Origin: Pseudocercospora fijiensis CIRAD86
Taxonomy: Eukaryota > Ascomycota > Dothideomycetes > Mycosphaerellales > Mycosphaerellaceae
NCBI RefSeq assembly: GCF_000340215.1
Contig: NW_006921550.1
Span: 529,923 to 593,922, forward strand
Direction of reading: 5' to 3'
DNA length: 64,000 bases
A program made the position numbers and the translations under genes. Shown here piece by piece: positions 6,466 through 63,682 of the stretch (its first letter is position 1; every line of letters begins with the position of its first letter). The notes beneath the pieces are model-generated. The model saw only the letters and a list, made by a program, of their open reading frames with translations. It did no database searches and had not been told where the DNA came from.

Positions 6466-6586
6466 GAGATGTTGCATTCTTCTTTTTCTTTAGCTCTTTC
6501 AGCCAGACCTGACCTGAGGAATTCGAAATCTTTTTGCTCTCCCTGTGCTACCATGTCCTGCCGGCGCTTCCCACGTCTCTCTCTCT

Positions 6587-35040: not shown

Positions 35041-35048
35041 GATGCAAA

Positions 35049-37330: not shown

Positions 37331-37498
37331 TGTCGCTCTCAGATAGGCTGTATATAGCCTATATAACTATAAAACACTATCGTTAGTTGGGGGTAATCTA
37401 AAACCCTACCAAAAATCTGTTCTAAGACTTGTTTTTTTTTTATTCTTTAAGATTCAAAGAAATTATTAGGTATATTAAGAAAATAAATAATTAGATTT

Positions 37499-37899: not shown

Positions 37900-38471
37900 C
37901 TAATATAAAGGTTTCTAGTAGTTAAATAGAATAAGCCTTAATTATAAAATAGTATCCTATCTAGATCTTAGTATTAGTACATTTTTTTCCTATACTATAA
38001 TATTAAACTAACCTAGTACTATTAGTACTTATAAAGCTAATATCTAGTATTATAGTACTATATTTCCCTATTATTCTCTATATTCGTACTATAAGCTATA
38101 CTAAATTCTATTCTAATTAAACCCTATTTCAGCGTCTAGGTCTATATCTATATTATCCATATCTAAAGCATCGTAGTCTTTATCTTCACTAGATAATTCA
38201 TCGTCTTCGCTTAGAAGCCCTATAGTTTGTTCTAATTCCTCTAAATCTAAATCTTCCTTAGTAGCCTTTTCTTTTCCTTTATTACTCGAACTAAATGCTT
38301 CTAGAATGTTTTCCGTAGCTACTTCTTTATCTTTTATTATATCTTCTTCGTCTTTAATAACCCCTAGACTCTTTAATATAATAAGTTTCTTAAAATTCTC
38401 CGAGCTAAGTCTATTACGTTTCTTTGTTAATATATCGACTGCTATAGAGAACTGCGACTCGCTAGGTACCG

Positions 38472-38490
38472 AGGTTGCTAATATAGATAG
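38472..38490. repeat. 19-bp target-site duplication of LINE copy 1 (3' side)
   Basis: AGGTTGCTAATATAGATAG, identical to 43368-43386, bounds the LINE within the hAT transposase frame. Confidence 0.9.
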
Positions 38491-43367: not shown

Positions 43368-43386
43368 AGGTTGCTAATATAGATAG
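43368..43386. repeat. 19-bp target-site duplication of LINE copy 1 (5' side)
   Basis: Second copy of the duplication. The transposase reading frame (WLSILAT) runs across it. Confidence 0.9.
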
Positions 43387-45543
43387 CCAATCTCGAGCTA
43401 TATTATAAATAATAGGTAGTCTATACTCTATACTTCTATAATAATCTTCTAGTAAATTTCTATTATTTCTATCTTTCGGTACTCTAGGCTCGGATAAGTA
43501 GGTCTCTAACTCGTCCGTTTCTAATCGTACTTTATTATCTTTAATATAGAATTCGTCGTCGTCGCTATCGTTATTATTCGTTCTAGAACTACTAGCAACC
43601 GTAACTTGCGATTCGTTATAAATATCTGTACGGCCTCTAGTATTATTATACTCGCTTTTATAACTATTATATATTTCTCTTAGGTAATCTTTTACTTCGT
43701 CTATTATAATAGAGCTAAAGTTAAGTGGATGACTTTCTAAAACTTGTAACTTAAAACACGGATTTAGAACCGTTATAACTAGTAAGTCTTTTAGTTTATT
43801 AAATGTAACTGTTTTACTATTACTATCTAAAACGGTCGTATCTTTAATAGGATAATACTCTAAGGCTTTTGTAATAGCCTGTTCTACTCCGTATTTTAGA
43901 AACGGATTAGCTTTAACACTAGGGTTTTTTAAGGTCTTTTCTAAACTCCTTATAATTTTAAATATTTCTAATATAGTCTTTGATATAGTCTCGTAGTCTC
44001 GGGCTTGAAATAGCTTAGTAGGATGTTTAAATATCTCTAGAATATCTCTTAATATAATAAGATAGTCGAACTCTTCGTTACTAATAGTAAAATTATCTAT
44101 ATTTAAGCTACGTCTCTGTTTATTAGGTAATCTAGTAGCGGTATCTAAGACTTTATTAATTTCACTAAAATGATATATTATACTAGTAATCATATTATAT
44201 TTAGATAGCTATCTAGTAACATTATCGCCTTTAAGCCTCTCGGAACCTCCTTTAGTATTATATAGCTTTTTATTCTCTTTTACTACTCGACTAAAAGTGT
44301 TTTTTAGAAAGTGATTTGTTTTAAAAGCTCTAATAATCTTTCGTAAGTTATTAGGTAGTATTTTCATACTAGAAGTAAAAGAATAAGTAGGATTATTTTT
44401 AATTATATTATCTATAGTATTTATAAAGGCTTTACTTGTATTAGGTATAAAAAAGCAATATAATAGAATAGAGTTACTTATTAAATTAATGATATGTGCT
44501 ACGCACCTTATATCTACGATATAATTACCCCATTGCTGTTTATATTCGGATTTAATTTGTGAAACTAAGGTATTAATAGGGCTAGCGTTATCCCTAGTTA
44601 CTCCTAGAATCCTATTTCTAATACTATATTGTTGAAGTAGGCTATCTAATTCTTTAAATAAAAAATCTCCGGTATAGGACGTAGCGCTATTTAATACTTC
44701 AAATCCGATTAAATAACTCTCTAATTTAAATTTTTTATTTATAAAATGTAAGGTAATACCTAAATAATCGTTACTATTATTAGGAGAGTTCCATTCGTCG
44801 AAGGTTAACGAGAATCTACTAGTATTTTTATTTACAATTCGTATACATTTCTCAATTTCCTTATTATAAAAAGTATTAAAAGCTTTAGTAATAAGATATC
44901 TAGAAGGTAGCTCGTCTATTTCACTATTTAAATAATTTAGTAGGTTAAAAAAGCTCTTACTTTGAACTATAGTAAATGGCTCGTTATTATTAATAATAAA
45001 TAGTAATAGTAATCTTGTAAATTCGTCGGTATTAAATAAACTATAACTTTTTCGCTTTCTAAGATTAGGTACTGTCTCTATACTTAGATGCTTATCTAAA
45101 GTAGTCTGACTATTATTTGAAGTATTATTATCGTTATTATCGCTATTATAATCGGAATCCTTAGACGTAAGTATATCTTTATGTTTTTGACTATAGTGGT
45201 TATATAGATTACTCGTGTTAAAAGGCCAGGTTCTATTCTTATAGATATAATTATATATAGTACAAGAAATTGTAAAGGTCCGTACTTTATTTTCAATATA
45301 GGGATCTAAAGTATAAGTAAAAAGCCGTTCCCTAATAGGAGGCGGCGCGTCTTTAAGCGCCGGTAATTTAGCGTCCGGGGTATTAAAATTAAATCTAGGA
45401 GGCATATTTAAGACAATTATTAAGATTTATAATTATTCTAGGTATAAGATATTATATATATATAAAGACTAATAGAATAATAAATGATAGTTTTTTTTAA
45501 TATTAGTAGTATATAAGAGTTAAGTATATAGTAGAGTATATAG

Positions 45544-46670
45544 ATAGATAGATATTTCATTTGCCTATTATAGTGCCTTTCGGCCTATATAGGTCTGTTT
45601 CTATATATTGTTTTAGGTAGGAAACCAACTTAGTTAGTAAAAACCTCCTTCCTATCCTATTTATAAGTATTGATCTTCTTCGTTTCCTTATTTTCCTTCC
45701 TCTAGGGTATACTAGTATTATAGTTGTTACCCTCTAACTACCTTGCCTACTACCCTGCCCTTCTTTCCCTCTCTTCTTCCCTCCTTCTTATCTACTCCTC
45801 GGTTTCCTTTACTAGTACGAATTGTTATATAAATCCCTATTTAATAATCTACTTTACTATCCTCTTTAGGTCTTCTTTACTCTAGATTAGCTTATCGTAT
45901 TCCCTTTCTATTGCTTTTAGTCTCTAATCACTTCTGCCTTCTAACTATTAAAGGTAGACTAGCAGTATATACTTAGGATTCTAAGATTAGTAGCTATATT
46001 AGCAAGCTCTGCTTTTAATTCCTAGGACGTTTCTTCTAAATAGGTAAGATCTGAGTCTAATGTATTTAGATCTGATTTAGATAGCTAGGCTTGCCTCGGC
46101 CCTATTTAGGTCCTTATAGAGCTAGTAGTTGTATTGACTAAATTTAATTAGTGCCTTTAGGGTTCCTAGTCTAACTTGTGTTTTATTCTATTCCTACTCC
46201 TATAGGTATCTAGTAATTGATTCTACTAGGCTTTGTTTCTCTCCCTTTAGCTTGTCTTCCTTTAGCCTTATATTTAGTCCCTAAAGCTCTTTCTCTAGCA
46301 TTTCTCTTATTAAGACTCTATATTGCTCTAGGTCTTTGACTTTCTAGGGAGTTATTTATAGTCTATCTCGCCTCCTAGTCCTAATATACTAGGCTTTTAT
46401 CTTGTCTATTACCTTTTAGATAGTCTATTAGGCTAGGTATTCTATTGTCTTTGCTATATATTAGTGTCTTAGTCCCTTGAAGTATTATTTAACTAGTAGG
46501 ATCCCTAATTCTATTTCTACTACCCTTATTAGTATAGTTTTGTATGCTCCTAGGATTTTCTTTAGGCTTTAGGTTTAGGACCTACTAATTGGTTGCTTAA
46601 TCCTCTTTAGTGTTTTCTCTTAGGCTGTCTATATCTATACTCTATATAGCATTGCTAGCTTAATAATTGC
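45544..46670 (-). mobile_element. Tad1-like LINE, copy 2, 3' part
   Basis: Collinear with 38495-39620 of copy 1, from the GATA tail and ATTTCATTTGCCT through the 3' region and the end of ORF2. Differences are almost all transitions, chiefly TG/TA and CA/TA pairs. It lies directly upstream of the hAT transposase start. The copy is cut at 46670 by the 17-kb hAT element and resumes at 63683. Confidence 0.9.
46663..46670. repeat. 8-bp target-site duplication, left
   Basis: ATAATTGC, repeated at 63675-63682 just outside the other inverted repeat. Confidence 0.88.
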
Positions 46671-46800
46671 TAGACCCCGCAGTGGTTCGGTTTCCGAACC
46701 ACTAAACGTATATAGTTTGGTTTCTTAGCGGCGAACCAGCTCCCTAGTTCCGGTTTGGTTTTTTCGAACTATATAGATTCCTAGTTTGAACTAGAGACTG

Positions 46801-47105
46801 TATTAGTTTTACTACAAGGACACTCTTATTCGACTGCCGGCTACGATTGCCGGCTATAATAGTAACTCTGTTATATTTACTACGCTCTTTTGCCGTTGCT
46901 AGGGCGTGGTTGCCGTTGCTAGGGCGTGGTTTTGCTACAAGGACACTCTTATTCGACTGCCGGCTACGATTGCCGGCCATAATAGTTACTAGGTTGTATT
47001 TACTACGCTTTATTACCGTTGCTAGGGCGTAGTTGCCGTTGCTAGGGCGTAGTTGCCGTTGCTAGGGCGTAGTTACTATTGCCGGGGCGTAGTTGCCGTA
47101 GTTGC
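46801..47105. repeat. Subterminal tandem repeats of the hAT element
   Basis: A unit of about 127 bp (TACAAGGACACTCTTATTCG ... GCCGTTGCTAGGGCG) occurs twice (from about 46811 and 46937). A 20-bp subunit GCCGTTGCTAGGGCGTAGTT then recurs several times to 47100. Subterminal arrays like this commonly bind hAT transposases. Here that role is inference. Confidence 0.8.
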
Positions 47106-47289
47106 GAAAGCTTACCTATATAACGTTACGTAGGCGGCAATAATTAGGGCTTCGCGATATTCTTACACTTTCAACTTCTTCCTCTATACCTATACCGATA
47201 ATAACTACTATACGCTGCGCCCCCGCCCCTTTCCCTTATAATAGCAAGAGAGAAGCGCGCCGCGCGCTAAACAAAAGATAGAACTAAAG

Positions 47290-48630
47290 ACCGCGAGTTT
47301 GTTTTACCTAAGCGTCTAACTAAAAAGCGTAAGACTAAAGAGGAGTACTCTACGAAGAAGAATTCCGTACGAGACCGCGAGAGAAAGGACAAGATAGATA
47401 AGGATAAAAAAGCTAAGGATAAGAGAAGAAAGGCGCGGAATAAGGCATTCTATCGATAGCTAGCGCCTATAGAAAAAAGTAAAGGTTAGAATAAGAAGAC
47501 AACCTAAGAGAAGGCTAAGAGGAGGAAAGAATTGCGGCTAGTTTTCGAGCGTATAGTTCTAGTAGCGTAAGTCAATCTAGCTAGCGGCCGTAGCTAGCAG
47601 CTATAGCCGGCAGCCGTAGCCGGCAGCTATAGCCGGCATATTTTTCTTTAATACGTTAACTAATAGCATTTAGACCTATAGTCGCTACCTCTATCGATAC
47701 GACCGATAGTAACGGAGATGTTTAGATAGCCGAGAACAACAATACTAGAGTTTAGGATGCCGCGATAGAGCTTAATACTACGAATAAAGGAACTGAAAAA
47801 AGCGAGGAGATACTATACGTCGATCTAGTAACAGGTACAGTCTTAGGGCCTAACGCTATAGACGATAAGCGCTAGGAGTAGATCGAGTATAGTTAAAGAG
47901 ACGAGATACTAGTAAAGGGCTAAGGTATAAGTCCTATTAATCTAGAAAATTATAGTTAAAGCTACTACGAAAAGCTAGCAAGGATTAGAATCGAGACTAG
48001 TCGTCTTTATATCCTCGATATAGAGTAGAAGTTTCTTTATTAGTATTAGAGCGAAGCCTTTACGTCTATAAAGGCAAAGTAGCTTACGATTAATGCGATC
48101 GGGGCTAGGTATCTAGGGACGGCAGAAGTATTACTATAGGAGGAAGGGGTATAGGTAATTATTCTATACTCGGTATATATAGCCGGCGTTCGTAGCCGGT
48201 AGATACTAATAGTTAAACAGAAAGCGTTTCTCGAAGGTAGAGTGCTACTACTATATAAAATCTTTACTAAGGTAGAGAGGGCTTATATCCGGAATCTAAG
48301 CTGCTAGTAGGATGGGTTAGCGTTAGAATTCTCTGAATCTCTATATAAGCCTCCGAAGGATTACCTATTTTAGCGATACGGCTTTATCTCGACTACTCCG
48401 TAGGTACCCGAAGAAGCTCGAGCGCTCTTTAAGGTCTTTACTAAGAAGCGGAAGGAGTTCGAGGATTAGGATTAGTTAATAGAGCTATTAGTTAGTCTTA
48501 GGTTTCGTAGTTAAACTCGGCCTAAGCATTTACTTATCGAGTGTTTTATACCGAAAGAGGATAGATTGAGACTGAAAACGAGCTTAGATTCGTTAGGTAT
48601 AGTAGCTCGGTTCCGTTAGTAGGAGAGAGC
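47290..48630 (+). pseudogene. Unknown RIP-damaged cargo gene 1 of the hAT element
   Basis: A basic first exon (KRLTKKRKTKEEYSTKKNSV, then lysine/arginine-rich) runs to 47566. It is followed by an intron 47567-47673 with GTAAGT donor, TTAACTAAT branch and TTTAG acceptor. The second exon continues as a long frame broken only by TAG/TAA, with recognisable protein-like text (SLYKPPKDYLF, LIECFIPKEDRLRLK). I do not recognise a family. It could be an N-terminal part of the transposase or an independent gene. The intron contains several CCGGC motifs. Confidence 0.4.
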
Positions 48631-48653
48631 CGCCGTATAGAAGGCAAAATTCA

Positions 48654-48775
48654 GGTAGTTAGGGTAGCTAGGAAAGAAATTCTAGTAGTTAGGCTAGCTA
48701 GGGTAGCTAGGAAAGAAAATCTAGTAGTTAGGTAGCTAGGAAACAAAAAAAAAAGGTAGCTAGCTATTTACTACC
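48654..48775. repeat. Short tandem repeat (GTAGCTAGGAAAGAAA type)
   Basis: About three imperfect copies of a 30-50 bp unit containing TAGGGTAGCTAGGAAAGAAA and TCTAGTAGTTAGG, between cargo gene 1 and the transposase. Confidence 0.7.
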
Positions 48776-48949
48776 TAGCTGTTCCTAACGATACGATACT
48801 ATAAAAGAAAGGGTGTTTCTCTATAGCTACTAGTATACATCTACTACTCCTAAGTCCTTACCTTACCGTACGAAACCTTAAAACATACCGACCGACATTG
48901 TATATATACTAGGCGCTATACTAGGAAGGGTAATAACGAAACGATAGTC

Positions 48950-51900
48950 GAAACAGTCTAGTATACGAGCGAGATTGCGACAACGTCGAGAGGAGGTCGT
49001 ATACTTACCTTCGAGCCTATCGAGTCCTAGACGACGATTAGGGCTAGATTTATCCTCTCCGAATCCTAGTAGTAGGAATTTATTATAGGGTACTACTACC
49101 TAGTCCTTACCTTTACGGAGTTTAAGTAGAAGGTTGTTCGGAGATATAAGAACATCGAGTATTAACCTAGAAATCTTCGAAAAGGCTAGCTAGGCGTATC
49201 TTTAGAAACCCGAGTATATAGAGCAGTTTAATTAATAGGTCTATAAGATATAGTTCCCTTTATACTTACGTTCGAAGGAGTATAAACTCCGGAAGTACTC
49301 GATACGATAGGGGAGTAAGGAGCGAACGGATACATTCTAGAAGTTCTTTATAAAGGGGGCATTGTACCGTTATACGACTTCTCGACTTAAAGGTTAACTA
49401 GTAATTGTCTACAACTTCTACGGTTCAATCTTAAAATACCCGAAACTAGGGGATAGGAACTTATCGCCTACGAACTATCTCTATTCTAAACGGTATCGGG
49501 AATCTTAAAGAGAGAGGAGAGTTAATATAGATATAGCGTTCTAGAAAGAGGTATATCTTCTAAAATGCCGGCTATAGCTACCGGCTATAGCTGCCGGCTA
49601 TAGATTCCGGCTACCTAAATTAACCGTAGAGATCTAGCTAATTATTATAGGCTACGCTTAAGGAAGCTCTAGGATTAAAGGCTACCGATTTCTCCCCCGA
49701 AGACTTTAAGTAACTAGCAAACGAAATGCTAGCTATAAACGGTCTTCTAGAAGACTTCTACGAAAGGGAGTCTATATAGAAGATATACCTATATCTTATA
49801 AACTACCCTCCCCTATTTCTCGGCGCGACAACCTAGCGTATTATATTCGAAAAGAATAAAGAGGCTACGTTAGACGATATTCGGGAGATCCTCCGTAATA
49901 CTCGCCGAGTAGCTATTACTATCGATAGCTAGTTAAGCCGGACTATAAGAGCCTCCTTCCTCTCGATTATACTATACTTTATCAATTCGGATTAGAAACT
50001 CTAGGAACTTATAATCGGATTCCCTAAAATTCTAGGTTCCTATACTAGTAAGGATATAGCGAAGCTTATCTATACGGCAATAGATAGGGTTAGCGTAATA
50101 ACGAAACTAATCTCAATTACTGCGGATAACGCTAGTAATAATCGAACATTGTATAAGGCGTTATATATACAATTCACTCGCATATATCTTTAAAATTACT
50201 AATTATATCGATAGGGTCGAGTACGTAGAGGAGATTATAAGGTCTATAATCTAGCTTAATCTTCCGAATATTAAGCTCGCTACGATTCCGGATACGTACG
50301 ACAATACGTACGATAATAACGATAAAGAGGAGCCTATTAATAGCCCTAGCCCTATTAAATCGGAGCCGACGTCGTTGCTAGTTGCATCCCTATAGAAGTT
50401 TCCTTACCTCGCTTATATAGTTTAAATCGCGATCCGAGCCCTCTTTGAGACGCTTAAAATTGCACTATTAAACAACGACTAATAGAAGATCCTAGATAAG
50501 GATAAAGCAAAGTCGAAAGTCGAGAAACTTATTATAGTAATAAGACGGGATAAGGTAGAGAGCCTCGCTCTCGTTTTATATAAGGTATAACTTTTATCCG
50601 TAGCCGGCACCTATAGCCGGCAACCTAGTATAGTTCTAACTCTTTTTCTCTAGCTTCGTCGTCTAGCAATATATACGAACTCGAGCTTATAGAGATATAA
50701 CCGATTCGAGGCTATTTAAAAGAACCTAATCGAGCGCCCTAAAACCGATGCCTAGAATATCGTATAGAATAAGCGATAGCAAAAGCGGCCTCCTTAGCGC
50801 CTACTCCGTTTTACCTAAGACGTTAAGACCCGGTTCGATTCGACTTTCTATATAGTTACGAGGGGATGTACTTTACGTACCGCTCTCGAGATCTATTAGA
50901 GTTCCGAGGGTATTAAGTAGCTCGGCCTTACCGCCGCCGAATAGCGCTAAGTAGAGTATCTCGTCGATATTAGTAAGTATTACGCGAAGGTTACTACTAC
51001 GATTAGAAGAACCCGAGGACCGACGATCTACCTTATCTTTATGTACTATAACTAGCTCTTTAACGAGCTCGAGGAAACCGTAGCTAAGCTAGCTAAGAAG
51101 AGCGTTCCCTAGAAAGTAGCTATAACGAAAGCTATAGACACCTCCTATACTAAGTTATATAAATATTATAGTGCTACCTTTAACTCGTTCGGGGATATCT
51201 ATAGCGTTACGTGCTTGCTTAACCCGGTAGAAAAGGATATATACTAGCAGAGGCCGGAATAGAAGGCGGACGAGGTATAGCCGAAGTATTACTAGACTAT
51301 TCTAGAAAAGATGTTCTACGAGTATCGGAAAGAAACTAGTCTAAATACAGCTTCTATAAAGAAAAAGAAGGTTTAGAAGGCTCCGATATTATACCTGTTT
51401 TATAGGTAGGAAGTAGAGGTAGAAGAGGAAGCAACTACTAAAGTAAATAAGGAAGAGTTCGATCTCTATCGGCGCGCGAGTAAGTATAAACCCGTAGGCT
51501 CGGAAAGAGGGCTAATAATCTCTAGATCTTACCGGTCTTCTAAACGAATTCAGAGACGATATTCTCGCTATATAGTAGCGGTTAGAGCCTAAGTTTCTAA
51601 CGATAGCGTCGGTCGCTCGGGACGTCCTCGCTATCCCGAGCGTAGGTATAGGCTATAAGAGGTCTTTTAGTATCGCTCGTTACTAGGGCCGCTTTAATCG
51701 AACATACTCGCCTACTACCTTCGAATCTATTATAGTATTCCGATACTATCTCCTCTACTAGAATCGCTAAGGTAGGTTACTAAAGATTATACTAAAGGAG
51801 TTAATCGAGGAATTAGAAAACCTTAAGATCGAAGAAACCTAGGAGCGCGAAGAGAATACGAAATTTAGTCTAAGCGAAACCCTAATTAGCGATAACGAAG

Positions 51901-51960
51901 AGGAGGAAGGCGGAGGTAGAAGGCGATACCGGGTCGAGAAGCGGAAACGTATATAGGCTT
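48950..51960 (+). pseudogene. hAT transposase of the 17-kb element, RIP-damaged
   Basis: Plus-strand frames broken mainly by TAG at Trp/Gln positions. Landmarks in order: a possible BED-region block near 49.0-49.2 kb; RRVAITIDS-LSRTIRASFL (about 49900-49950); LIIGFPKILGSYTSKDIA (about 50010-50060) and ITADNASNN (about 50118-50145), the hAT catalytic-core hallmarks; then a C-terminal block with SVARDVLAIPSVGIG (about 51608-51655), equivalent to the hAT dimerisation motif. Several intron-like CCGGC-rich gaps (49565-49612, 50597-50625) separate exons. It belongs to the same superfamily as the split gene at 38-45 kb, but the two proteins are clearly different. No intact copy exists in the window. 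Confidence 0.8.
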
Positions 51961-52312
51961 AGAGTAGCTTTAAGGAGACGAAGCGTTTACGTATAAGGTA
52001 ATATAGCCGGCGTATATAGCCGGCATATATCCGAAATGTGTTTCGAATTCCTAGGACCTAAACAGACTAGTTGCTATAGCAACCGACCCCGCTTACCTAC
52101 GGACTATTTCTAATTCTCTATTCGCTCTTCCTCTCCTTCTTCCCTTTCCCTATATTCTTAAAGACAAACATACCTTAAGGATTCGGCTCTTCGGGCCTTC
52201 CTAAGCCGGCTGCCTCCCCTTCCTTAAGCTACTATCCTTTATTCGAATCTAACGATAACCTAATAAGGCGGTTTAATAGAAGACTATTTATTCTAGAAGG
52301 TAAGAAGCATTA

Positions 52313-52954
52313 ATGTCTCCCTACGATTATATACTTATTAATTTTCTAGGTCCTACCGATATACCCTCGTCGCCTAAACGCGTAGATAAATATCTTTAGA
52401 GGCTAAAGGGCAAGGGTAAAGCAAGCTAAGTATAGGGAGACCGTAGCGAGAACGAGATATCGGAAGAGCAAGGCTCTCCGTAGTATATACGAAGGAAGGG
52501 GGTTCCTTAGAAAACAGTACCGAAAAACAAGAAGGCTATAGGTAGATAGGAGAAGGCTAAAAAGAGTAGGCGGACGAAGACTATCGCGAAGAAAAGTTAT
52601 CTTTCTATTAAAAGAAAGGGAATAAGGCAGGACTCGACGATAAAGAAGCGGCGCTTTAAACTAGGTACTATTGCCCTTCGCTAGATCCGGCTTTTCTAAA
52701 ATAAAAGAGGGACCGAGCTTTTAATCCCTAAGACTCCCTTCTAGCGACTCGTCCGAGAAATTATATTAGATTTTCGGTCTAGTATACGATTTACGGCTAA
52801 GGCGATTAGTACTCTTTAGGAAGCTACGGAGGCATTTCTCGTAACCGAGCTTAAGCTTTTAAACCTCCTTGCTATCTATACGAAGCGGGTTACTCTTTAA
52901 AATAAAGATATACAGCTTCTAGCTAAAATTCGGCGTCGGTTTATAGCGGATTAG
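52313..52954 (+). pseudogene. Histone H3-fold gene A (CENP-A-like), RIP-damaged
   Basis: From an ATG at 52313 one frame reaches a stop at 52952-52954, 213 codons, with internal TAG/TAA at likely Trp/Gln codons. The first 114 residues are a basic, Lys/Arg-rich tail with no clear H3-tail motif. The last 100 are an H3 fold: KLGTIALR (H3 PGTVALR), GTELLIPKTPF (STELLIRKLPF), RLVREI, DFRSSIRF, EATEAFLV, LLAIYTKRVTL and NKDIQLLAKIR (PKDIQLARRIR). The long tail, EAFLV instead of EAYLV, RVTL instead of RVTI, and a two-residue insertion before GTELLI recall centromeric CENP-A variants. The gene lies between the transposase and the Gypsy insertion in the 17-kb hAT. An in-frame open stretch continues after the stop at 53042. 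Confidence 0.82.
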
Positions 52955-53041
52955 TTAGAAATTGTATTTAGTCGTTAGATTAACCTAGGAGGAGGCCTAT
53001 TTTCGTATCCTTTTGCCGGCTATAGGTGCCGGCTACATTTC

Positions 53042-53440
53042 TGATTTTATCTCCGCGCCGTCCCTAAATCTAAGGTACGAAGTAGAAACCTAGCGCTCTA
53101 TATTTACCCGGCTCTTATAGAGACGAGCTATATTTAGATTAGTTTCTTCGTATATCGCGACCTAGCGGGTAGTAAGCGAAAGGGCGATAGAACGTTTATA
53201 ATACGTCTCTATTTAGACCTAAAATATAAAGGTCCTAAGGAGCCCTAGCATCCTAACTATAAGGAGATTCTTTAGTATTAGTACTTTAATCCTCTGTACT
53301 ACGAGGCAGATAGCAAGCCTACGAGAGAGAAACTTTAACGAGAAATTCTCTATAATACGTAGCGCTATTATATAGCTATAGATACGCACTAAGTCCGGCA
53401 ACTCGAAGAAGAATTAAGACAGCGTATTAGCGACTAAGGA
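53042..53440 (+). pseudogene. Unrecognised RIP-damaged frame downstream of H3-like gene A
   Basis: The same plus frame as gene A carries protein-like text with TAG/TAA mainly at probable Trp/Gln codons: LRAVPKSKVRSRNLALYIYP, RTFIIRLYLDLKYKGPKEP, YFNPLYYEADSKPTREKL, then QLEEELRQRISD and a stop. A CCGGC-rich spacer (52985-53040) separates it from the H3 fold and resembles the introns of this element. It may be a C-terminal exon of gene A or a separate gene. No family recognised. Confidence 0.35.
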
Positions 53441-53705
53441 GGAGATCGATAGTATACTAGTAGAGTCGAGGTCTTATAAGCGAAGCATAAGATAATATAG
53501 GCTCTTAGTCGTATAGAGTAACGTACTATATAAATAACTAGGCGTACTACTCTTATTTACTTACGACCTATATCCTAGGATACTCTTATCGTACTTTTTA
53601 TACTCTTTTCTAATACCTTACCTATAATCGCTCCGCGACAACCGAGTAAATATAAGCTATAGGATTTCCGCTCGGTACCTTAGCCTTCGAGATACGGCGG
53701 AGTTG
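53346..53705. repeat. Tandem duplication of about 360 bp, unit 1
   Basis: Begins ATTCTCTATAATACGTAGCG and ends at CGGAGTTG. Unit 2 starts with the same sequence at 53706 and is split by the Gypsy insertion, continuing at 60866-61106. Confidence 0.85.
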
Positions 53706-53823
53706 ATTCTCTATAATACGTAGCGCTATTATATAGCTACAGATACGCACTAAGTCCGGCAACTCGAAGAAGATTTAAGACAGCGACCGAGCAGGAGAAT
53801 AATAGTATATTAGTAGAGTCGAG

Positions 53824-54021
53824 TGTTAGGACTAAAGAGGTTACACGTAATTAGTATGTGACTAGGCTCGAGTGAAGCTAGGGTCTTAATGCCTTAGGCA
53901 GGGCTTGGCGCTTGGCGTTAGGCTAACTAGCCTGCCTTCCTCCCTCTTCTCTTAGATCTCTATCGAATACTACCTGTACCCACTACTACCCTATCTACCT
54001 ACTAATATAACCCTTCTTACA
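53824..54021 (+). repeat. Gypsy 5' LTR
   Basis: 198 bp, TG...CA ends, preceded by TCGAG. It contains the internal sequence ATCGAATACTA at 53962-53972, complementary to the adjacent primer-binding site. Confidence 0.92.
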
Positions 54022-54032
54022 TAGTATTCGAT
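54022..54032 (+). other. Self-priming primer-binding site
   Basis: TAGTATTCGAT directly follows the 5' LTR and is the exact complement of ATCGAATACTA inside the LTR (53962-53972). This is the arrangement of Tf1/sushi-type elements that prime with their own RNA 5' end rather than a tRNA. Confidence 0.72.
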
Positions 54033-54239
54033 CTACCCTTTAAGGGCAGCAGCTAGATAGTCCTTATTTCAAGCTTTTAGCGGTATAGCTACGAATAAGA
54101 CTAATCTAACTATATTGCGCCCGAAGAACGGGACCTATATATACTACTCTATCGAAGCAACCGTACCAATTATTAAGCAAGGCCTTCTATACGGCCTACT
54201 ATACTAAGTTAATCGTACTAGACCGATATCTACTAATTC

Positions 54240-55640
54240 CGCTACATCCGCATCTTAGGGGCTAACAATACATTATTAGTGTTACCCCCTATTACAATAG
54301 CCGGTTTATTACGAAACAACAACCGTGCTACCGCTAGCAGCGCTAGCAACGACAACGCTAGTAGCACAGCGCCTACTAAAGTGCCTACTAAGGTTCCTAC
54401 TAAAGTGCCTCCTGCTAAAGGGCCTGCTACTAAGCCTGCTAAAGAAGAACCTGTAATTCCAGGTAACGATCTAGAATTGCCTGTTAATGACATTCTTAAC
54501 AACATTGTCAATCGACGATATAGCTAGCTAGCCTTTAGGCCCTAGCTAGTAGCGAGACTTTAAGAAGCTACCTAAAATAGGCTTACTGCCTTGCGCTAAG
54601 AACAATAGCTAAAGGATAATCTCCTCGAAATTCGCCGCCTTTAGGAGGCCCTAACAACTAATACTAAGCCGATAGTAGGGCCTTCCTTACTATCAGTCCT
54701 AGTCTAGAAGAAGGATGCTAAACTTAAGGACTGTACCGTATTTAATAGCTCTAGCCGCAAGCAGTACAATGATTATATACGTGACTATAAGCTTAACTAA
54801 CGAAATGCACTAAGGGCCCTGCTAGACGACTATTCGCTAGTCGTCTATGCTATGCAATACATTAATAGAGACCTAAAGCGTACCTAGGATAACCACTTTG
54901 ACTCCCTTACTGATTAGACCGCTGTTTAGTAGCAAACCTACAAAACCATTATGCTAGACACCCTTAGAAACCCTATACTAAGGCAACAATACGCTTAGGA
55001 CTAGTACCTTCGGGCTAAGTAAAAGACTGATCAATCAGCCCGTTTATTTAAGGCCTATTTAAAGACCCTCGAAGACGATTTGCTAGCTAAGACCGACTCT
55101 ATCTAGATTTCCGAAACACGCCCTAAATTGCGATAGGAATTAGTCCTTGAATTAGACCGCCGTCGCGTGTTCGAATAGACTAATCTTACACGCATTCAAT
55201 TCATAGTCGAAGTCGAAACTGCTAAACGAGCTGTCTAGCTCTAGCAACGACTAGAATTAAGGATCCGACCTACTAACAACCGTAGCAACCGTAGCCGCGG
55301 AGGAAACTAAGGTTCCTACTAAGACAACAATGCTAACAATAGGAATAGTAACAACGACCGTAGTAGAAGCCGTAGCCGGCGGCTATATAGAGGAGGCCGT
55401 AATAGGGGCCGTAGAAGGGGCTCGTATCCCTATAGTACTAATCGCTCGGCTAACAATAGCGGCAACAGCTACAGCAATCCCCTAACCGGACTAAAGTGCT
55501 TCAATTGTGATAGTACTAGCTATCTACTAGGCTAATGCGACAAACCTAAGGACTAGGCCCGAATCGACCGTACTGCCGCTAAATACCGAAAGCACCTTTT
55601 AGCAGCTAACGCTATCCCTATAGGCCAACCTTCGAAAAAA
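54240..55640 (+). pseudogene. Gypsy gag region
   Basis: Plus-strand frames with a repetitive Ala/Lys/Pro/Val segment (TKVPTKVPTKVPPAKGPATK, 54378-54437), a capsid-like helical region, a basic Arg/Ser/Asn stretch (55300-55480) and a zinc knuckle CFNCDSTSYLLG-CDKP near 55505. Interrupted by TAG at Trp codons. Confidence 0.75.
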
Positions 55641-55669
55641 GAGTAAGCGCCGCACTAACTGTTAGCCTC

Positions 55670-58600
55670 GTGCAGCGTAAGACTATCGACATTGTGCTAG
55701 CTATTATACGTACCTGTCTTATATCTAGGCCCGACACTAACTATAAGGCAAAGATTATACTAGACCCCGGAAATTCAGTTAGTGCCCTTATTAGCTATCG
55801 CCTAGCTAAGCAATTAGACCTTCGACAACTGCCTAGGACTGACCTACTAACCCTTGCTTAGTTTAATAACGCTCGGTACTTGACCTATAGGGCCTACTAT
55901 ATCTATATAGCCCTAAAGGACGACCTCGGCAATAAGCGCCTACTAAACTTTACTACCTACGCGGTAGATATAGACAGCCTCCTATCTAAGATTGTTATTA
56001 GCAACCCTGTTCTTAAGTACTATACTATAGTTATAGACTTAGGTAGTTAACAATAGCGATTTAGAATCGCTAGGAAAGAGGACATTAAATATATTAATGT
56101 TAGCGAGTGCCCTAATAATATTAGGGTCCTGTTCATTAGCAACCTAACTCTAGCCGATCCGACGGCCGACCTACTCGGTAGTAATAACGATGAACCTGTA
56201 CCCCCTAATGATCCTAATCAGCTTGCTCGTATACTAGAGCCTATCCGAGAGACCTACATTAATGTGTTTAAACACTACTTAGCATCGACATTGCCTATGT
56301 TCAAAGAGACGGATTATAAGATTGATATTATAGAGGGTAAAGAGGTTCCTTTTAGTCCCCTCTACAACCTTAGTGAACGAGAGCTTGCTATGCTGCGTAA
56401 GTACCTAGAGGAAAACCTAGCTAATAGTCGCATTCGATATAGTAATAGCCCTACTAGTGCACCTATCCTCTTTGTACTAAAGAAGGATAGTAGCCTACGC
56501 CTCTATATCGATTATCGTAGGCTTAACGCTGTTACTATTAAAGATCGCTGTCCACTTCCTCTTATTAATAAGACCCTCGATCGCCTTTCTAGTGCCTATT
56601 ACTACACTATATTAGACATTAAGGACGCCTATTACCGCATCCGTATTCGTAAGGGCGATGAATAGAAGACAGCCTTTCGCACTCGTTATAGGCATTTCGA
56701 GTACTTAGTTATACTATTCGGCTTAGCTAATGCCCCTATAACATTCTAGTCCTATATCAATCGGGCCCTTTCGGGCCTATTAGATCACCTTTGTATAGTT
56801 TACCTAGATAACATCCTGGTTTATACACACTCTCCTAATATTGCGGAACACTAGGCTATAGTCCGTAAGGTACTCGATCGCCTAAGGGCCTATAGCTTGT
56901 ACTACAAACCCTCTAAATGCACCTTTGCTACTAAAGAGGTGTCCTTCCTTAGCTTCCTCGTATTAACCGAGGGTATTAAGGCTAATCCTAATCGGATTAA
57001 AACTATTACTGAATAGCCTGTTCCTACGTCAATTAAGGAGCTGCAGTCGTTCCTCGGTTTTGCTAACTTCTATCGCCGATTTATTAAGGGCTATTCGAGG
57101 CATGTAATGCTACTAACTAAGCTTACTAAAACTAAGGCCAACCCGACTAGAGAGTTCAAATAGACTAACAGAGCACAAGCCGCTTTTAACGGTCTAAAGC
57201 AGCGCTTTACTAAAGTCCCCTTGTTATACTATTTTGTACTAAGTAAGCAGATCCGCATTGAGACTAACGCTTTACAGTTTACTATATCAGCCATTATGTT
57301 ATAACAGGCTAATAACAATCACTAGCACCCGATTGCCTTCTTTTCGAGGAAGATAATCGATGCTAAGCGTCGCTATAAGACCTACGAGCAAGAGCTCTTA
57401 GCTATTGTCGAGGCCTTTAAGTATTAGAGGCATTACCTCGATAGGGCCTAATATACGATATAGGTCTATACAGACTATAACAACCTCCGTAGCATTACTA
57501 AGGTTACTAGAGTCATAGGTCGATAGGCTAGATAGGCCGTCTACCTCGCTAGGTTTGATTTTAATATATTATACCGGCTAGGCGTAAGTAACCCTGCCGA
57601 TAGCCTATCGAGGCGACCTAATTACGATAGCGAGACCTAACACATTAATTCTTTGTTTCTAACCCTGTAGCATAAGATTGCTATAGCCCGTATTGTTAAT
57701 AAGCAAGCGTAGGATAAGCGGCTTACCGGACTCCGCGACGGCTTAAAGCATATTAATACTCTTGCTATATTAATAGTACGTATTAAGGCAAGAGCTAAGG
57801 ACACAGATAGGAGAAGTTATAATAACTCCCTAGTCGATATCGCAATATACAGTAACAGCGATAGCACTAATGCAGTTGATCCGGCTACTAGTGCTATTAG
57901 ATATATACAATGCGTACCTCGTTTAACCGCGAGGGTACTATTGAATAACCTTGCAAATAGGGATAGTCAATCGTTTATAGATAAGCTGTTATAGGCTCAG
58001 CGGAGGGACGCCTTTGCTACTAAACGTATAGACAAGCTTGTAAGTAGGCGAAAGACTCGATCTAGTAAGAGTAATTAGTCGATCGACGACAAAGGTCACT
58101 TAAGGTTTAAGGGCAGATACTATGTCCCCGCTAAACATTCGATCCGATAAGAGCTTCTTAAGCGACACTATAATAGTGAGCTTGCCGGTCACTATAGTAC
58201 AGAGAGGTCGTACGAGCTACTATCGCGCACATACTACTAGCTAAATAGTAAGCGGGATATAAAGGACTACGTAAACACGTATGCCGTATGTTAACGAGTT
58301 AAAGCACTAAAGTACTTACTATTTAGCGAGTTGTCTTTACTCCCTATTCTAAAGAAGCTATTTGTAGAGCTTATAATAGACTTTATTATAGGCCTTCTAC
58401 CTGCTAAACGTAGGGGCAGTAAGGACATCTTCGATACTATCCTTATTATAGTAGATCGGTTTACTAAAGGCGCTCGATATATCCCGGCACGGAAGGATTA
58501 GACTGCTATTAACATAGTAGAGGCTCTGTAGAGCAACATCTTCTATACCTATTAGGGGACCCCTAAGGGGATAGTCTCTAACCGGGGCACGACATTCACA

Positions 58601-59510
58601 TCCTATTATTAGAGCGAGATATACCTACAGCTAAGACTAAAGCATCGGCTATTAACAGCCTTCTATCTATAGACTAACGGTTAAACAGAGAGGCAGAATG
58701 CTACCCTATAGCAGTACCTGCGTAGTTACATCAACGAGAACCCTAACGACTAGGTTAACCTCCTACAGCCTACAGAATTCGTATACAATAACAGTGTACA
58801 CTCATCTACTAAGGTTTTACTATATATAGCTATAATAGGCTAGAACGCCGCCTTACTACAAGATCTATTTACCTCGCTCGAGGCCGAGCGTAAGGAAAGG
58901 GAAGCGCGTCAAGTACCCGAAACACTAGCGGCTATTAAGAGGGTTTAGAAGATGCGAGAAATCTATGCTAAGATAGCCGAGAAGTTGATAAAGGCTTAAG
59001 AGTACTAAAAGACCTACTACGACAAGCACTATACGCTAATAACCTTCAAACAAGGCGATATAGTTATACTAAGCACTAAGAACCTCCGCATCCGCAAATA
59101 CCTATTACCTAATAGTAAAACAAGGCCCAAGCTCGCACTAAGATATATTGGCCCATTTCGTATCCGAGAACCGAAGGGCAGTAGCTAGGCCTATTAGTTG
59201 TAGCTTCTACCTTATTATACCATCTACGATACCTTCTATGTATCCCTCCTTAAGCCGTACTACCTACGCGAAGGGGATGAAGCCCCTATAGAATACGAAG
59301 ACATACTAGCGGACGGTAAAGAGCTATAGTCTATAGAACGTATCTTGTAGCACCGGACTAGGTAAGGCAAGAAGGAGTACCTACTAAGATAGTAAGGCTA
59401 TCTACCTGAATGGGACTCGTAGGAAGCTGAAGGTTCCTTTAAAGATATAACCGAGTTGTTAGATAAGTATTAGACTAGTATAAAGAACAAGAAGAAGGCT
59501 AAGGGCCTAT
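55670..59510 (+). pseudogene. Gypsy pol: protease, RT, RNase H, integrase, chromodomain
   Basis: Protease core ILDPGNSVSALIS (55760-55800; the usual D-S/T-G is D-P-G). RT from 56264 to about 57000 with [29 protein letters not shown] and VYLDNILVYT (YLDD box near 56800). RNase H at 57240-57600 (IETNALQFTISAIM, YEQELLAIVEAFKY, SNPADSLSRRP). Integrase zinc finger at about 58140-58300 and core LIIDFIIGLLPAKRRGSKDI, TILIIVDRFTKGARYIP. A GPFRIREPKG / PYYLREGDEA region and a chromodomain end the frame at about 59510. Trp codons are TAG nearly throughout. The longest surviving open stretch is 56264-56665. Confidence 0.88.
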
Positions 59511-60667
59511 AATGTCGCCTAGGAACAATGCTACCCCCGGGGTGCTATTAGCTAACTAATTAGAGGCCGGCAAACTAGGACAATAAGACTATACTACTAT
59601 AGTAAACGCGCGCCGAGTGTTAACAAGCGCGCTATAACGCGTCAACTATCTACTGCTCTTTTAGGAAACCGCCTCTCTACTAACGCGCCCTATAAGGCCC
59701 TTCTCCTAGTGTTTAGGTCCCCCTCTTGTTCCCTTATTCTGTCGAGGCCTCGAGGCCTAGGTAATCGGCGAGGACGGCGCGGCCGGCGCGGCTATATTAG
59801 TAACAGTGTTGCGGAGTGTATTGTTAGCCGAAGAAGGAAATCGAAAGCAAGGTAAAGTTAGCGCTAAGACGACTAGCGCCGCTATTGTTAATATTACTTG
59901 CTGTTGTCGCTGCGCCTACAGATACAACCTTACCTACACTACGAGCCTAAGGTACCTTAATTAAACGTTAATCAAAACTTTAATTAAAACTTTAAGCCGC
60001 TTAAAGGATTAAGCGACTAATAGACTAGCTAACTAAGGGTAAAACTATAGAGCTAAGCTAGCCGGGGTCGATCTTACGGACAATAGGTTACTCCTCGATC
60101 TATCTAACCCTTTAAGCGAGGCGAACCTCTACTACTACACTTATAATAGCCTTTACCTATAGAAACTAGACGAGCTGTGTTTTTTAAAAAGATAAGATAA
60201 GATTGACACTTGAAGGCTACTAAACCTGACTAATTAGGGCTAGCGAAACTACGAACAATAATAGCCCTCGTAACAATAAGAACAAACCCTCGGAGCGGAC
60301 ATTTCTAGGTCTTTTAAGAGTAGACGCAAAGAACTCGGTACGACATTACTTAGAGCGGAGGTAGGGCTATAATACCTCGTACGTCTACCTATTATAGCAG
60401 GGAAGACGCGCTCGTATTATAATTAGTCGATAGCCCTCAATTCTTATAGTTTTATATCCCTTTACTTTATTGTATACAAGGATAGCGCAGTTAGAGTTAG
60501 ACGTTGTATTAGAAAGTGAGGTTTGACATAGTTATATAATTAGGTAGTTAAGTGTTTAATTTAGCGCGGACTAAGAAGCTTGCTAGACCTGCTAAGTTAG
60601 TAGCGACAGAGGTTAAGAATAGAACATAGACCGGCTACGAGGGCGCGGCCTTTAGAAGGGAAGCGTA
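59511..60667. other. Gypsy 3' untranslated region
   Basis: 1.15 kb between the chromodomain end and the 3' LTR, without a supported frame. The last bases include the purine tract. Confidence 0.55.
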
Positions 60668-60865
60668 TATTAGGACTAAAGAGGTTACACGTAATTAGTA
60701 TGTAACTAGGCTCGAGTGAAGCTAGGGTCTTAATGCCTCAGGCAGGGCTTGGCGCTTAGCGTTAGGCTAACTAGCCTGCCTTCCTCCCTCTCCTCTTAGA
60801 TCTCTATCGAATACTACCTATAACTACCACCACCCTATCTACCTACTAATATAACCCTTCTTATA
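60668..60865 (+). repeat. Gypsy 3' LTR
   Basis: 198 bp, matching the 5' LTR apart from mostly G-to-A and C-to-T differences (its ends are TA...TA). It is preceded by a purine-rich tract AGAAGGGAAGCG at about 60653-60664 and followed by TCGAG. Confidence 0.92.
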
Positions 60866-61397
60866 TCGAGGTCTTACAAGCGAAGCACGAGATAATATAG
60901 GCTCTTAGTCGTATAGAGTAACGTACTATATAAATAACTAGGCGTGCTACTCTTATTCACTTACGACCTATATCCTAGGATACTCTTCTCGTACTTTTTA
61001 TACTCTTTTCTAATACCTTACCTGTAAGCGCTCCGCGACAACCGAGTGAATATAAGCTATAGGGTTTCCGCTCGGTACCTTAGCCTCCGAGATAGGGCGG
61101 AGTTGAATTTAGAGCGATAGCCGGCACTCGTAGCCGGCTATCGTAGCCGGCATATAGAGACGGTAGTAGGCCTTTTCCTGCTAAATAACTAGCTTGTTTA
61201 GTATAGCCTACCTAATATTTCTTATATTTACTAGCAATAGGCCTAGGTTACTTATAAGATTACTATAGCTAGTAAAGGCATTACTAAAGAATATCTATAC
61301 TATAGTAGGATACTATTATCACGCCGGCTATTTATTAAAAGGAGGCTTTCGCCTATTACTATACCGGCTACATATGCCGGCTATATTTCAAAGTCTG

Positions 61398-61473
61398 CCG
61401 TACCTGCCTTTTTTAGCCGTACCTGCCTTTTTTAGCCGTGCCTGCCTTTTTTAGCCGTGCCTGCCTTCTTTCC
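61398..61473. repeat. 19-bp tandem repeat, four copies
   Basis: CCGTACCTGCCTTTTTTAG repeated four times with small changes (A/G at the fourth or fifth base, last copy ending CTTTCC). It lies about 200 bp upstream of H3-like gene B and could be part of its promoter. Confidence 0.85.
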
Positions 61474-61678
61474 TTACTCTAACGTTACTATAATATAGGC
61501 TTGCGCGAAGCTTACTCTGTTGCCTAGCGACACCGCGACACTACCGCTATATTCAACCTTCGTATCGATACCTATACCTCTACGCTCTATATCTACTACC
61601 TCCGCAATATCCTCGCTCCGCGCGCGCCTTCGTATACCTTCGTAACGTACTTTTTTCCTTAATTCGACGACTTTTATA

Positions 61679-62378
61679 ATAGCGAGTCTACTTAACTAAG
61701 TTACGACGCCTCGTAAGAAGGGACCTACTACTTCTACGGGTCGTAACAAGATCGGAAATAGTAGAACGAGTATAGTACATCAACGTAAGATAGCTACTAC
61801 TACTGCCGCTAGCTCCGGTACTAGAAAGGGCGTCGCGAGTAAGGCTCCGCGTAAGACAACGGCGGGCAAGGCTCCGCGTAAGACAACGGCGGGCAAGGCT
61901 CTACGTAAGACGACAACTAGCGCTTCTACTGCTAGTAGCAATCGTGCGAAGCGTCGATAGCGCCTAGGAAGTAAGTCCTATTTATAGCTAGCAGCGTAGC
62001 CGGTAGCGTAGCCGGCAGCGTAGCCGGTATTCTTACTGTCTTTTTACTAATCCTTCTTTAGCCGTAGCCCTCCGTAAGATTCGGTAGTATTAGAAGAGTT
62101 CTTAGCTCCTAATCCGCAAAACTCCTTTCTAACGACTTGTTCGCGAAATTGCCTAGAATTATAGAACGGACCTTCGCTTCTAAGCCTCCGCGATAGGCGC
62201 CCTTTAAGAGGCTATAGAAGCCTACCTAGTTCGTATCTTCGAATATATATTTCTCTTCTACCTCTTTTCGGACTATGCTAATACTATTTTAGCGGTTAAC
62301 CTTATAGCTATCTACGCGAAGCGTATAACGATTATAGACAAGGATTTCAAAGTACTCGATTAGATTCTAAAAGGCTAG
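61679..62378 (+). pseudogene. Histone H3-fold gene B with H3-tail motifs and an intron, RIP-damaged
   Basis: Exon 1 (about 61679-61970) encodes a basic tail. From 61841 it reads KAPRKTTAGKAPRKTTAGK, repeating the H3 tail motif G-K-A-P-R-K (H3 residues 13-18) two and a half times. The intron 61971-62061 has GTAAGT, TTACTAAT and TTTAG. Exon 2 (62062-62378) is an H3 fold: VALRKIR, LLIRKTPF, RLVREIA, YRTDLRF, ASAIGAL, EAIEAYLVRIFE, then, after a probable second intron with a damaged donor (about 62250-62300), NLIAIYAKRITI and DKDFKVL. Internal TAG/TAA stand mostly where Gln is expected. The start is uncertain: no ATG remains, and ATA at 61679 may be a mutated ATG. EAYLV and RTDLRF make this copy closer to canonical H3 than gene A. 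Confidence 0.85.
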
Positions 62379-62602
62379 AATGTCTATATTCGAGACGGTG
62401 CTAGGTAGGATAGATATTCTAGTAGAAAGGATGTTCGTAGTGTTATCTATAAGCTTTTCTGTATACGAAATAAGCCGCTGTTATACGGCGCTATATACCG
62501 CGCTCTAAATACTGTCTAAGTATATATATATAGTATAGTATACTTTATTAGCCGTACGGAATAGAAGTCTCCCAAAATCCCGTTAATACTAAGGAGTAAA
62601 AA

Positions 62603-62656
62603 GGCCGGCTACGCTGCCGGCTACGCTGCCGGCTACGCTACTAGCTACGCTGCTAG
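62603..62656. repeat. 12-bp GCCGGCTACGCT tandem repeat
   Basis: Four to five copies of GCCGGCTACGCT, the last ones mutated (CTAGCTACGCT). The same motif recurs elsewhere in the 17-kb element, including near 63471-63493, and as AGCCGGC in the left half. Confidence 0.85.
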
Positions 62657-62789
62657 GTTTTTTAAAGAACTAAAAGAAGATAGACATTCCGGTTGATTTG
62701 TATTAGTTTAGATTTTTATAAAAAGAAAATAGGGAAAAATAAGGAAGGTTGAAGAGCCTAATAGTTATAGTTATAGGCACTATCCCTGT

Positions 62790-63242
62790 TTTCTAGAGCA
62801 TATTATACACCTGCCTTCGCAACTCTACCTAATACTCCTTTTAAATATCCTTATACTCTACCTACTAAAAATTCAACTAGGTACCTAGACCTATAGCTGC
62901 CTCTATATCTTTTACTATCTTCTATAGGTTGAAGGCCTCTTCTATAGTAGCCTCTACCTCCTTATATAATACGAAGTTACTACCTACCCTACCCTTTATA
63001 TCTCCTAAATAACTAAGAGTTCTAAGGAACGAACTAGTATTCGGCCTTAGTATAGCGAGTAACTAGTAGAACGTTCTATAGAGCTGCCTTATAGCTCTTT
63101 TATATACTATGCCGATACCGAGGGAGGAGCTATCCTAGTACTTAATGTTATCGAATAGTTCGGTAGGAAAGTGTATAAACTTCTTAAGGAGGAGGACTTC
63201 TAGGGAAATCGATAAGTTCTGCCTAGATCTAGATAAAGACAT
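62790..63242 (-). pseudogene. Unknown minus-strand cargo gene of the hAT element, RIP-damaged
   Basis: Starts at an ATG at 63242 (MSLSRSRQNLSISLEVLLLK) and continues KFIHFPTELFDNIKY, DSSSLGIGIVYKRAIRQLYR, SYLGDIKGRVGSNFVLYKEV, IVKDIEAAIGLGT and a final helix with VELRRQVYNML. TAG/TAA stands at likely Trp/Gln positions. About 150 codons. The composition is helical. No family recognised. It is convergent with H3-like gene B and lies next to the right inverted repeat. Confidence 0.5.
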
Positions 63243-63674
63243 TCTACTAAGCAGTTAGGGAATTGAACCGTAAACGAAAGGATGAAATTCATACCTAAGG
63301 AGTATAGTTTCCGAACTAAACTATAATGCCTTATATGTATATATATATGCTTTTGATTGGTTAGTGCCCTTAGCTGATTGTCTATAGATTTGAGGTTATA
63401 TAAGTACCTTTATACAACTACGTAGCCTAAGTAGGATTCGAAAATTCTATAAGTACTAAGGACTAAAAATGCCGGCTACGCTGCCGGCTACACTGCTAAG
63501 TCTTACAAAGGGCTTGCTTAAAGCTACGTATACATTCGTACACTTCTTAAAAACCGATAAATTATATAGTTCGAACCAGCTACTTATATAGTTGCTTAGC
63601 AAACCAACTCAAACCAAACTAGAGTTTCGGCTTAGCAAACCAAACCAAACCAACCCGAACCACTGCGGGGTCTA

Positions 63675-63682
63675 ATAATTGC
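63675..63682. repeat. 8-bp target-site duplication, right
   Basis: ATAATTGC, immediately followed by the continuation of the interrupted LINE. Confidence 0.88.

Follow-up and report, generated by a model that had tools for sequence, protein, structure and literature searches.

A stretch of 64,000 nucleotides from Pseudocercospora fijiensis CIRAD86 (contig NW_006921550.1, positions 529,923 to 593,922 of the forward strand; hereafter the window) contains a copy of a hAT transposon. Between its terminal inverted repeats (TIRs) lie two genes for proteins with the histone H3 fold, here called A and B, and the whole is flanked by target site duplications (TSDs). The positions below are those of the window.

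46663-46670, no strand assigned: left 8-bp TSD, ATAATTGC
46671-46690, plus strand: left TIR, 20 bp, match to TAGACCCCGCAGTGGTTCGG
46671-63674, no strand assigned: hAT element copy, 17,004 bp with a nested retrotransposon and about 9.96 kb without it (from the TIR pair, the TSD and subtraction of 53824-60865)
52313-52954, plus strand: gene A, encoding an H3 fold preceded by a tail of about 114 residues; no intron seen in the fold (PF00125, E 9.1e-23)
61679-61970, plus strand: gene B exon 1, encoding the tail, which has three units of nine residues; the presumed start codon reads ATA here
61971-62061, plus strand: predicted gene B intron 1 (91 nt, from GTAAGT to TTTAG), in which motif repeats occur
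62062-62244, plus strand: gene B exon 2, from alphaN to most of alpha2 (PF00125, E 1.3e-21)
62245-62292, plus strand: predicted gene B intron 2, 48 nt, whose donor GT reads AT in the window copy
62293-62378, plus strand: gene B exon 3, from the end of alpha2 to alpha3, and the stop codon
63655-63674, minus strand: right TIR, 20 bp, inverted match to TAGACCCCGCAGTGGTTCGG
63675-63682, no strand assigned: right 8-bp TSD, ATAATTGC, identical to the left one

The sequence TAGACCCCGCAGTGGTTCGG has exactly two sites in the window when up to three mismatches are allowed; both are free of mismatches and inverted with respect to each other, and the count in 100 shuffles was 0. The 8-bp TSD, the short TIRs and a C-terminal dimerisation domain (described below) are the features found here that assign the element to the hAT superfamily. 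The genome comprises 73.9 Mb in 30 contigs. With up to two mismatches, the TIR matches it 362 times forward and 358 times in reverse, and the H3-carrying hAT is present in hundreds of copies. For comparison, we took 13 copies whose paired TIRs are separated by 9.5-10 kb from among the first 100 TIR places; one pair at the 10-kb limit was omitted. These copies are 9,529-9,961 bp long, and all 13 of them, like the window copy, are flanked by identical 8-bp TSDs. Genes A and B are found in the same order in 12 of the 13, and the remaining copy (L010) consists of N across 5.9 kb spanning their expected place. Since both genes are present in all 12 readable TIR-paired copies, they are not separate insertions, and chance or the separate insertion of H3 pieces is ruled out as their origin.

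A first-pass annotation of this DNA had proposed that two different H3-type folds lie within one hAT element. The TIRs, the TSD and the PF00125 matches for A and B agree with this. The opposite case that it had named, copies without the genes and with H3-like pieces inserted separately, failed on the 12 readable copies. Its interval, 52313 to 62378, was correct for the positions of the genes, whereas the true span of the element is 46671-63674. Both genes occur in more than one subfamily of the element; copies of subfamilies II-IV were fetched through histone-profile matches. Subfamily III (L018-L022, L028, L031, L032 and L034) is a related family in which A and B are present and which has its own TIR variant, TAGACGCCGTAGTAGTTCGG, at one end.

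When the histone-profile search suggested in the first-pass annotation was carried out, the Histone family of Pfam matched both the read-through of A (E 9.1e-23) and exon 2 of B (E 1.3e-21). Compared with the chains of the PDB, A matched histone H3 at 1.5e-27. The fold of A shares 48 of 88 residues with the host H3, and that of B shares 58 of 84. The length of the A fold was 297 nt in all 23 rows of the alignment, and the intron is absent from this fold at the site of the host intron 2. Judged from their sequences, A and B are different H3 types.

Gene B had been taken at first for a single reading frame from 61679 to 62378. The alignment of 23 rows shows three exons instead, with two stretches bearing fungal-type GT-AG signals between them. 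In intron 1, TACTAAT precedes the terminal TTTAG. This intron lies one codon 3' of intron 2 of the host H3, and both are in phase 1 (phases were assigned by eye). Intron 2 starts with GTATGT in some copies and ends with CTAAT followed by TTTTAG. Among 292 exact genomic matches, for which either letter was allowed, its donor is GT in 94 and AT in the rest; a TpG-to-TpA change would yield AT for GT at this position. The 48 nt of intron 2 are divisible by three and free of stops, and this would explain why the stretch was taken for an insertion: the 16-residue insertion published for the second H3-like domain (Dhillon et al. 2019, PMC6710886) is replaced here by the predicted intron, on the basis of the GT-AG signals and the donor GT in 94 of the 292 matches. 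Removal of both introns gives a 186-residue H3 reading, and we infer that B was spliced at both predicted sites. By its two GT-AG stretches and by the frame evidence described below, B does not appear to be an intronless retrocopy. This means that the published capture of an intronless transcript does not fit B, and the predicted introns would correct the capture route for this gene.

The tail of B contains a 27-nt unit (61835-61915), present in three copies here and in varying number among the element copies. Each nine-residue unit resembles, by eye, residues 9-18 of H3, around K9, K14 and K18.

The window copy is plainly mutated by repeat-induced point mutation (RIP). In the left part of the element, TpA/ApT is 1.83 and (CpA+TpG)/(ApC+GpT) is 0.25; the corresponding values in positions 1-33900 of the window are 0.52 and 1.36. 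The in-frame stops of A and B are TAG or TAA without exception. Within the folds, three of the five stops in A and five of the nine in B face a glutamine of the host H3, as is expected of the change from CAG or CAA to TAG or TAA under RIP. A scan of the genome with the Histone family gave 772 first-look candidates, of which 150 were scored, each of them a match. Stops are missing from only two of these, both of them host exons: one belongs to the three-exon H3 on contig 6 (L016), the other to CENP-A on contig 5 (L017). A non-autonomous relative of 373 bp with the same TIRs was found at L014 (C7:1843900-1844330) and L015 (C14:62350-62780). Its GC content is 0.54-0.56 and its (CpA+TpG)/(ApC+GpT) is 0.65-0.78, versus 0.25-0.38 in the full element, so that it seems to be less affected by RIP. 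According to Dhillon et al. (PMC6710886), RIP has a length limit of about 400 bp, and the 373-bp relative is slightly shorter.

The lengths of the parts of B are distributed unequally with respect to the reading frame. Exon 1 occurs in five lengths (235-295 nt) among 22 rows, and each of these lengths leaves a remainder of one on division by three. Exon 2 measures 183 nt in every one of the 22 rows, and exon 3 is 83 nt up to the stop codon in 21 of them; in the remaining row (L019) it continues as other sequence. For intron 1, nine lengths were counted in the same 22 rows, and all three remainders occur among them.

Because RIP yields transitions only, transversions can be read as a record of change before RIP. 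When L007 (subfamily I) and L028 (subfamily III) were compared in 200-bp bins, element positions 1-6400 and 7600-8800 showed 0.01-0.14 transversions per site. The spacer between A and B (6400-7600) and the part past 8800 showed 0.20-0.33, as in unrelated sequences. The A and B blocks align and the spacer and the right end do not, which suggests that the histone genes were kept while the neighbouring DNA was replaced.

The distribution of transversions over codon positions was examined by parsimony on trees of the copies. L001 (with a run of N) and L010 (with a run of N and no match) are absent from the B set, and L010 is absent from the A set. The A fold has 9, 3 and 10 transversions at codon positions 1, 2 and 3 (22 in total over 297 sites), a deficit at position 2 (p 0.035), and the A tail has 35, 34 and 35 (104 at 336 sites). 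Without L027 the counts are 7, 3 and 9 in the fold and 17, 16 and 19 in the tail. In exon 3 of B, which was tested after the whole fold, they are 3, 4 and 15 (p 0.001). Pairwise transversion counts by codon position were mostly not significant. Coding constraint is thus visible, by these counts, in part of each fold. The tail of B and the stretch from alphaN to loop 1, a block delimited after inspection of the alignment, are the parts that vary most between subfamilies. A conserved fold end beneath a fast tail and a fast alphaN-loop 1 stretch could be that of a histone in conflict; positive selection is not claimed.

A and B occupy separate places in the trees. When three long-branch rows are removed, A groups with the database protein P0002 and with P0045 of Drepanopeziza (96/93), and these are referred to together as the A line. 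In the best tree the A line is placed next to CENP-A with weak support (72/62), and B is placed among the H3s. Loop 1 of both A and B has the length of that in H3 and aligns without gaps to the host H3, whereas loop 1 of the host CENP-A is longer. The first-pass annotation had left the choice between an H3 and a CENP-A variant; loop 1 has the H3 length in both proteins and B lies among the H3s, and the A line may be nearer either to H3 or to CENP-A, since its placement with host-like H3s is not rejected (p 0.18). For the approximately unbiased (AU) tests, three long-branch rows were dropped, H3_P0035 (cut, with most of the fold lost), H3_P0088 and H3like_Eremomyces, and the groups were named after the first tree had been seen. 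The first groupings excluded near-identical H3s or the relatives of A and say little (A with the host H3, p 0.025; A with CENP-A, 0.0044; A and B with the host, 0.006). Grouping of the A rows without their relatives with four host-like H3s was rejected (p 0.036), and that of A and B with those H3s gave 0.081. It is improbable that A was copied recently from the H3 of this host. A profile search with one alignment, in which 6640 of the 7970 scored entries matched, proved uninformative, probably because the N-terminus of one row was biased; the 120 matches listed include no Pyrenophora H3L.

The remaining features of the element are as follows.

46836-63490, no strand assigned: span over which a 12-13-bp motif is clustered (core TAGCCGGC/T), on both strands
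49672-51770, plus strand: transposase remains, with changes of frame between several probable exons and approximate limits set by eye (from the read-through of the L007 equivalent)
51558-51719, plus strand: hAT C-terminal dimerisation domain (PF05699, E 1.5e-4, 21.9 bits)
53824-60865, no strand assigned: nested long terminal repeat (LTR) retrotransposon with LTRs of about 200 bp; TSD TCGAG at 53819-53823 and 60866-60870

The dimerisation domain was found when the piece 51471-51800 of the window was scanned, at a cut-off of 21.4 bits for PF05699; in L007 the same domain gave E 1.8e-5 and 24.9 bits. It was missed in a scan of the whole frame at E 0.1. Profile matches throughout the genome numbered 21 for DUF659 and 47 for the dimerisation domain, none of them within the 13 comparison copies by coordinates. 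For the RNase H-like core, for which Dhillon et al. reported DUF659, six further pieces of L007 were searched; the best relevant match, TNP-like_RNaseH_N at E 0.12, is below the cut-off. The minus frames of the element showed nothing of note.

Motif cores number 32 in the two halves of the window element, 31 in L007 (subfamily I), 25 in L029 (II) and 24 in L028 (III), against shuffle means of 1.3-1.8 and a largest shuffle value of 7. The nested retrotransposon has 4 (shuffle mean 1.0, largest 6), and window positions 1-33900 and 34001-46670 have 0. In L007 there are no cores in A or in the exons of B and four in intron 1 of B. By eye, the clusters lie between the genes and in the probable introns of the transposase. 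A protein of the element may bind this array.

The nested retrotransposon, of about 7 kb, sits between A and B in the window copy, and the 13 comparison copies are too short to house it at that place. Its dinucleotides are RIP-like, and its two LTRs are 95% alike over a stretch of 197 nt. Its insertion parted a tandem duplication of about 361 bp within the hAT (53345-53823 and 60866-61106). Outside the element, the GC content drops sharply near position 34000, from about 0.52 to 0.34, where DNA rich in long open frames meets AT-rich DNA. The AT-rich block contains a second hAT on the minus strand, with a dimerisation domain at 38368-38499 (PF05699, E 1.2e-7, 31.8 bits). This second hAT also includes long open frames of 281 and 398 aa at 43348-45405, likewise on the minus strand; the first has a weak match (E 0.0014) below the cut-off.

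We give a probability of about 0.45 to the reading that the two H3 genes of this RIP-mutated hAT were its own, and that the predicted H3 variants entered nucleosomes and aided the expression or spread of the element. Frame keeping, retention, the partial codon pattern and the introns argue indirectly for an element-encoded H3 that served the element; A and B would then have been translated and selected for the sake of the element. Once it had reached a new genome or escaped from silencing, the element would express the transposase, A and B. The A and B variants would replace H3 on the element DNA and weaken silencing that is based on the H3 tail, and RIP would finally mutate the copies. In a bolder form, the transposon might have had a chromatin of its own: the two variants would be deposited on element DNA marked by the motif, forming nucleosomes unreadable to the silencing enzymes of the host. 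In this form A would stem from the line with kin in Drepanopeziza, and B would combine a fast tail and DNA-contact region with a conserved core; we regard it as tentative and rather unlikely.

Several observations weigh against an H3 that served the element. The left block, non-coding DNA included, is as well kept as A, so that retention there is not specific to the histones, and in the comparison with subfamily II the spacer is unalignable only in part. Histone-free copies of subfamilies II-IV would have escaped, because these subfamilies were fetched through histone matches. The frame of the A tail is broken in 7 of 23 rows. The codon pattern is not significant in either tail (B tail 15, 26, 14) nor in the whole fold of B (27, 20, 31; p 0.15 for position 3 and 0.09 for position 2), and exon 2 of B has 24, 16 and 16. 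The exons of B have 133 transversions at 528 sites, versus 8 at 138 sites in its introns. Even position 2 of exon 2 (16/61) exceeds the introns (8/138), with p 0.0002, a value that is approximate since sites can change twice. Such an excess of exons over introns is not expected of simple purifying selection; mosaic exchange may explain it, and the repeats of intron 1 may be homogenised. Among the 22 aligned rows, a GT donor at intron 2 is confined to subfamily I (8 of its 14 rows, against none of the 8 rows of II-IV), and the region of L030 (subfamily IV) has only 5 motif cores. Moreover, the other 148 of the 150 scored histone matches contain stops, and three placements pass the AU test: the A line with B (p 0.37), the A line with the four host-like H3s (0.18) and B with the host-like H3s (0.41).

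Some of these points would be accommodated by passenger transduplication as published for P. fijiensis (PMC6710886), in which a copy of an intronless host H3 transcript was caught, amplified as dead cargo and destroyed by RIP. The stops in the 148 non-host matches, the intron-free A fold at the host site and the p of 0.18 for the A line with host-like H3s are consistent with it. Nevertheless, the two stretches with intron signals in B are difficult to derive from such a transcript; exons 1 and 2 of B stay in frame as intron 1 drifts, and the A rows alone were rejected from the host-like H3s (p 0.036, in a grouping that excludes the two relatives of A). We regard this origin as unlikely. As a second alternative, the element may have made two captures that it never used: B from an H3 gene with introns in an ancestor of the host, and A from an H3 variant that had diverged, with both genes carried along by the success of the element. 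Intron 1 of B lies one codon away from a host H3 intron and shares its phase, B with the host-like H3s is not rejected (p 0.41), A has relatives of its own, and the tails and exon 2 look neutral. Frame keeping and the third-position pattern of exon 3, however, are difficult to explain without use, and the two captures seem to us improbable. Centromeric mimicry, in which A or B would be a derivative of CENP-A that draws in components of the kinetochore and biases how the element is transmitted, might be suggested by the weak position of the A line beside CENP-A (72/62) and by the variability of the B tail and the alphaN-loop 1 stretch between subfamilies. The tail and the alphaN-loop 1 stretch are fast-evolving parts in CENP-A. 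Against this, loop 1 has the H3 length in A and B, B lies among the H3s, and A rows in or beside CENP-A were rejected (p 0.0044, in a test that excludes the relatives of A); this mimicry is very improbable.

If the H3 genes were resident and selected, as in the preferred reading, the H3 repeats reported from three Dothideomycete sources (Pyrenophora, Parastagonospora and the Pseudocercospora group) need not be accidents. They might represent a class of transposon genes that target the nucleosome, alongside the TET/JBP, SET and VANC genes found in other transposons.

The first-pass annotation knew of no hAT element carrying H3, but such elements had been described by Dhillon et al. 2019 (PMC6710886) and Manning et al. 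2013 (PMC3538342), and the phenomenon is already published. Dhillon et al. described in P. fijiensis a hAT with 20-bp TIRs, 8-bp TSDs and a full length of 9.5-9.9 kb. One or two H3-like domains were reported per element, with 784 H3-like copies and CpA-to-TpA RIP. The original three-exon H3 was placed on scaffold 6, and the same event was reported in five further species, Cercospora and Sphaerulina included. They considered that an intronless host transcript had been captured and that the second domain had a 16-residue insertion, and a dimerisation domain was not found. The element in the window shares with that family the length, the 20-bp TIR, the 8-bp TSD, the two H3-like domains and RIP, and is almost certainly a member of it; the original H3 of the host lies on scaffold 6 there and on contig 6 here. 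The assembly used here has 30 contigs, whereas theirs has 56 scaffolds. The present account differs in finding two intron-like stretches in B, a separate H3 type for each of the two genes, and a dimerisation domain. The additions made here are the intron-bearing nature of B, as judged from signals and lengths, the distinct types of A and B, the partial constraint, the dimerisation domain and the motif array. Among the papers listed in our literature searches, none deals with the introns of B, the relatives of A or the motif array, and the available parts of PMC4994206 and PMC3562529 added nothing on the H3-hAT element.

The Pyrenophora tritici-repentis hAT of Manning et al. (PMC3538342) carries a transposase, a further frame and H3L between its TIRs and was called a transduplication. 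It differs from the present element in having 5.6- and 2.3-kb forms, one H3L, and 26 mostly intact copies with expressed sequence tags; according to Dhillon et al. (PMC6710886), the P. fijiensis and Pyrenophora elements are not similar to each other. In Parastagonospora nodorum, Hane and Oliver 2010 (PMC3017866) described R25, a repeat affected by RIP with weak similarity to DNA transposons and an H3 match after deRIP. Unlike the hAT here, R25 was interpreted as an endogenous gene region. Finally, the VANC anti-silencing proteins of Arabidopsis, whose targets are often tandem repeats (PMC5735166), and the fungal transposons with TET/JBP genes (PMC12730594) share with the present element an extra gene that acts, or in our case might act, on chromatin or DNA methylation, although the genes are different and those transposons have no H3 in the accounts available. 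The motif array is reminiscent of the targets of VANC, a likeness that serves as a lead by analogy.

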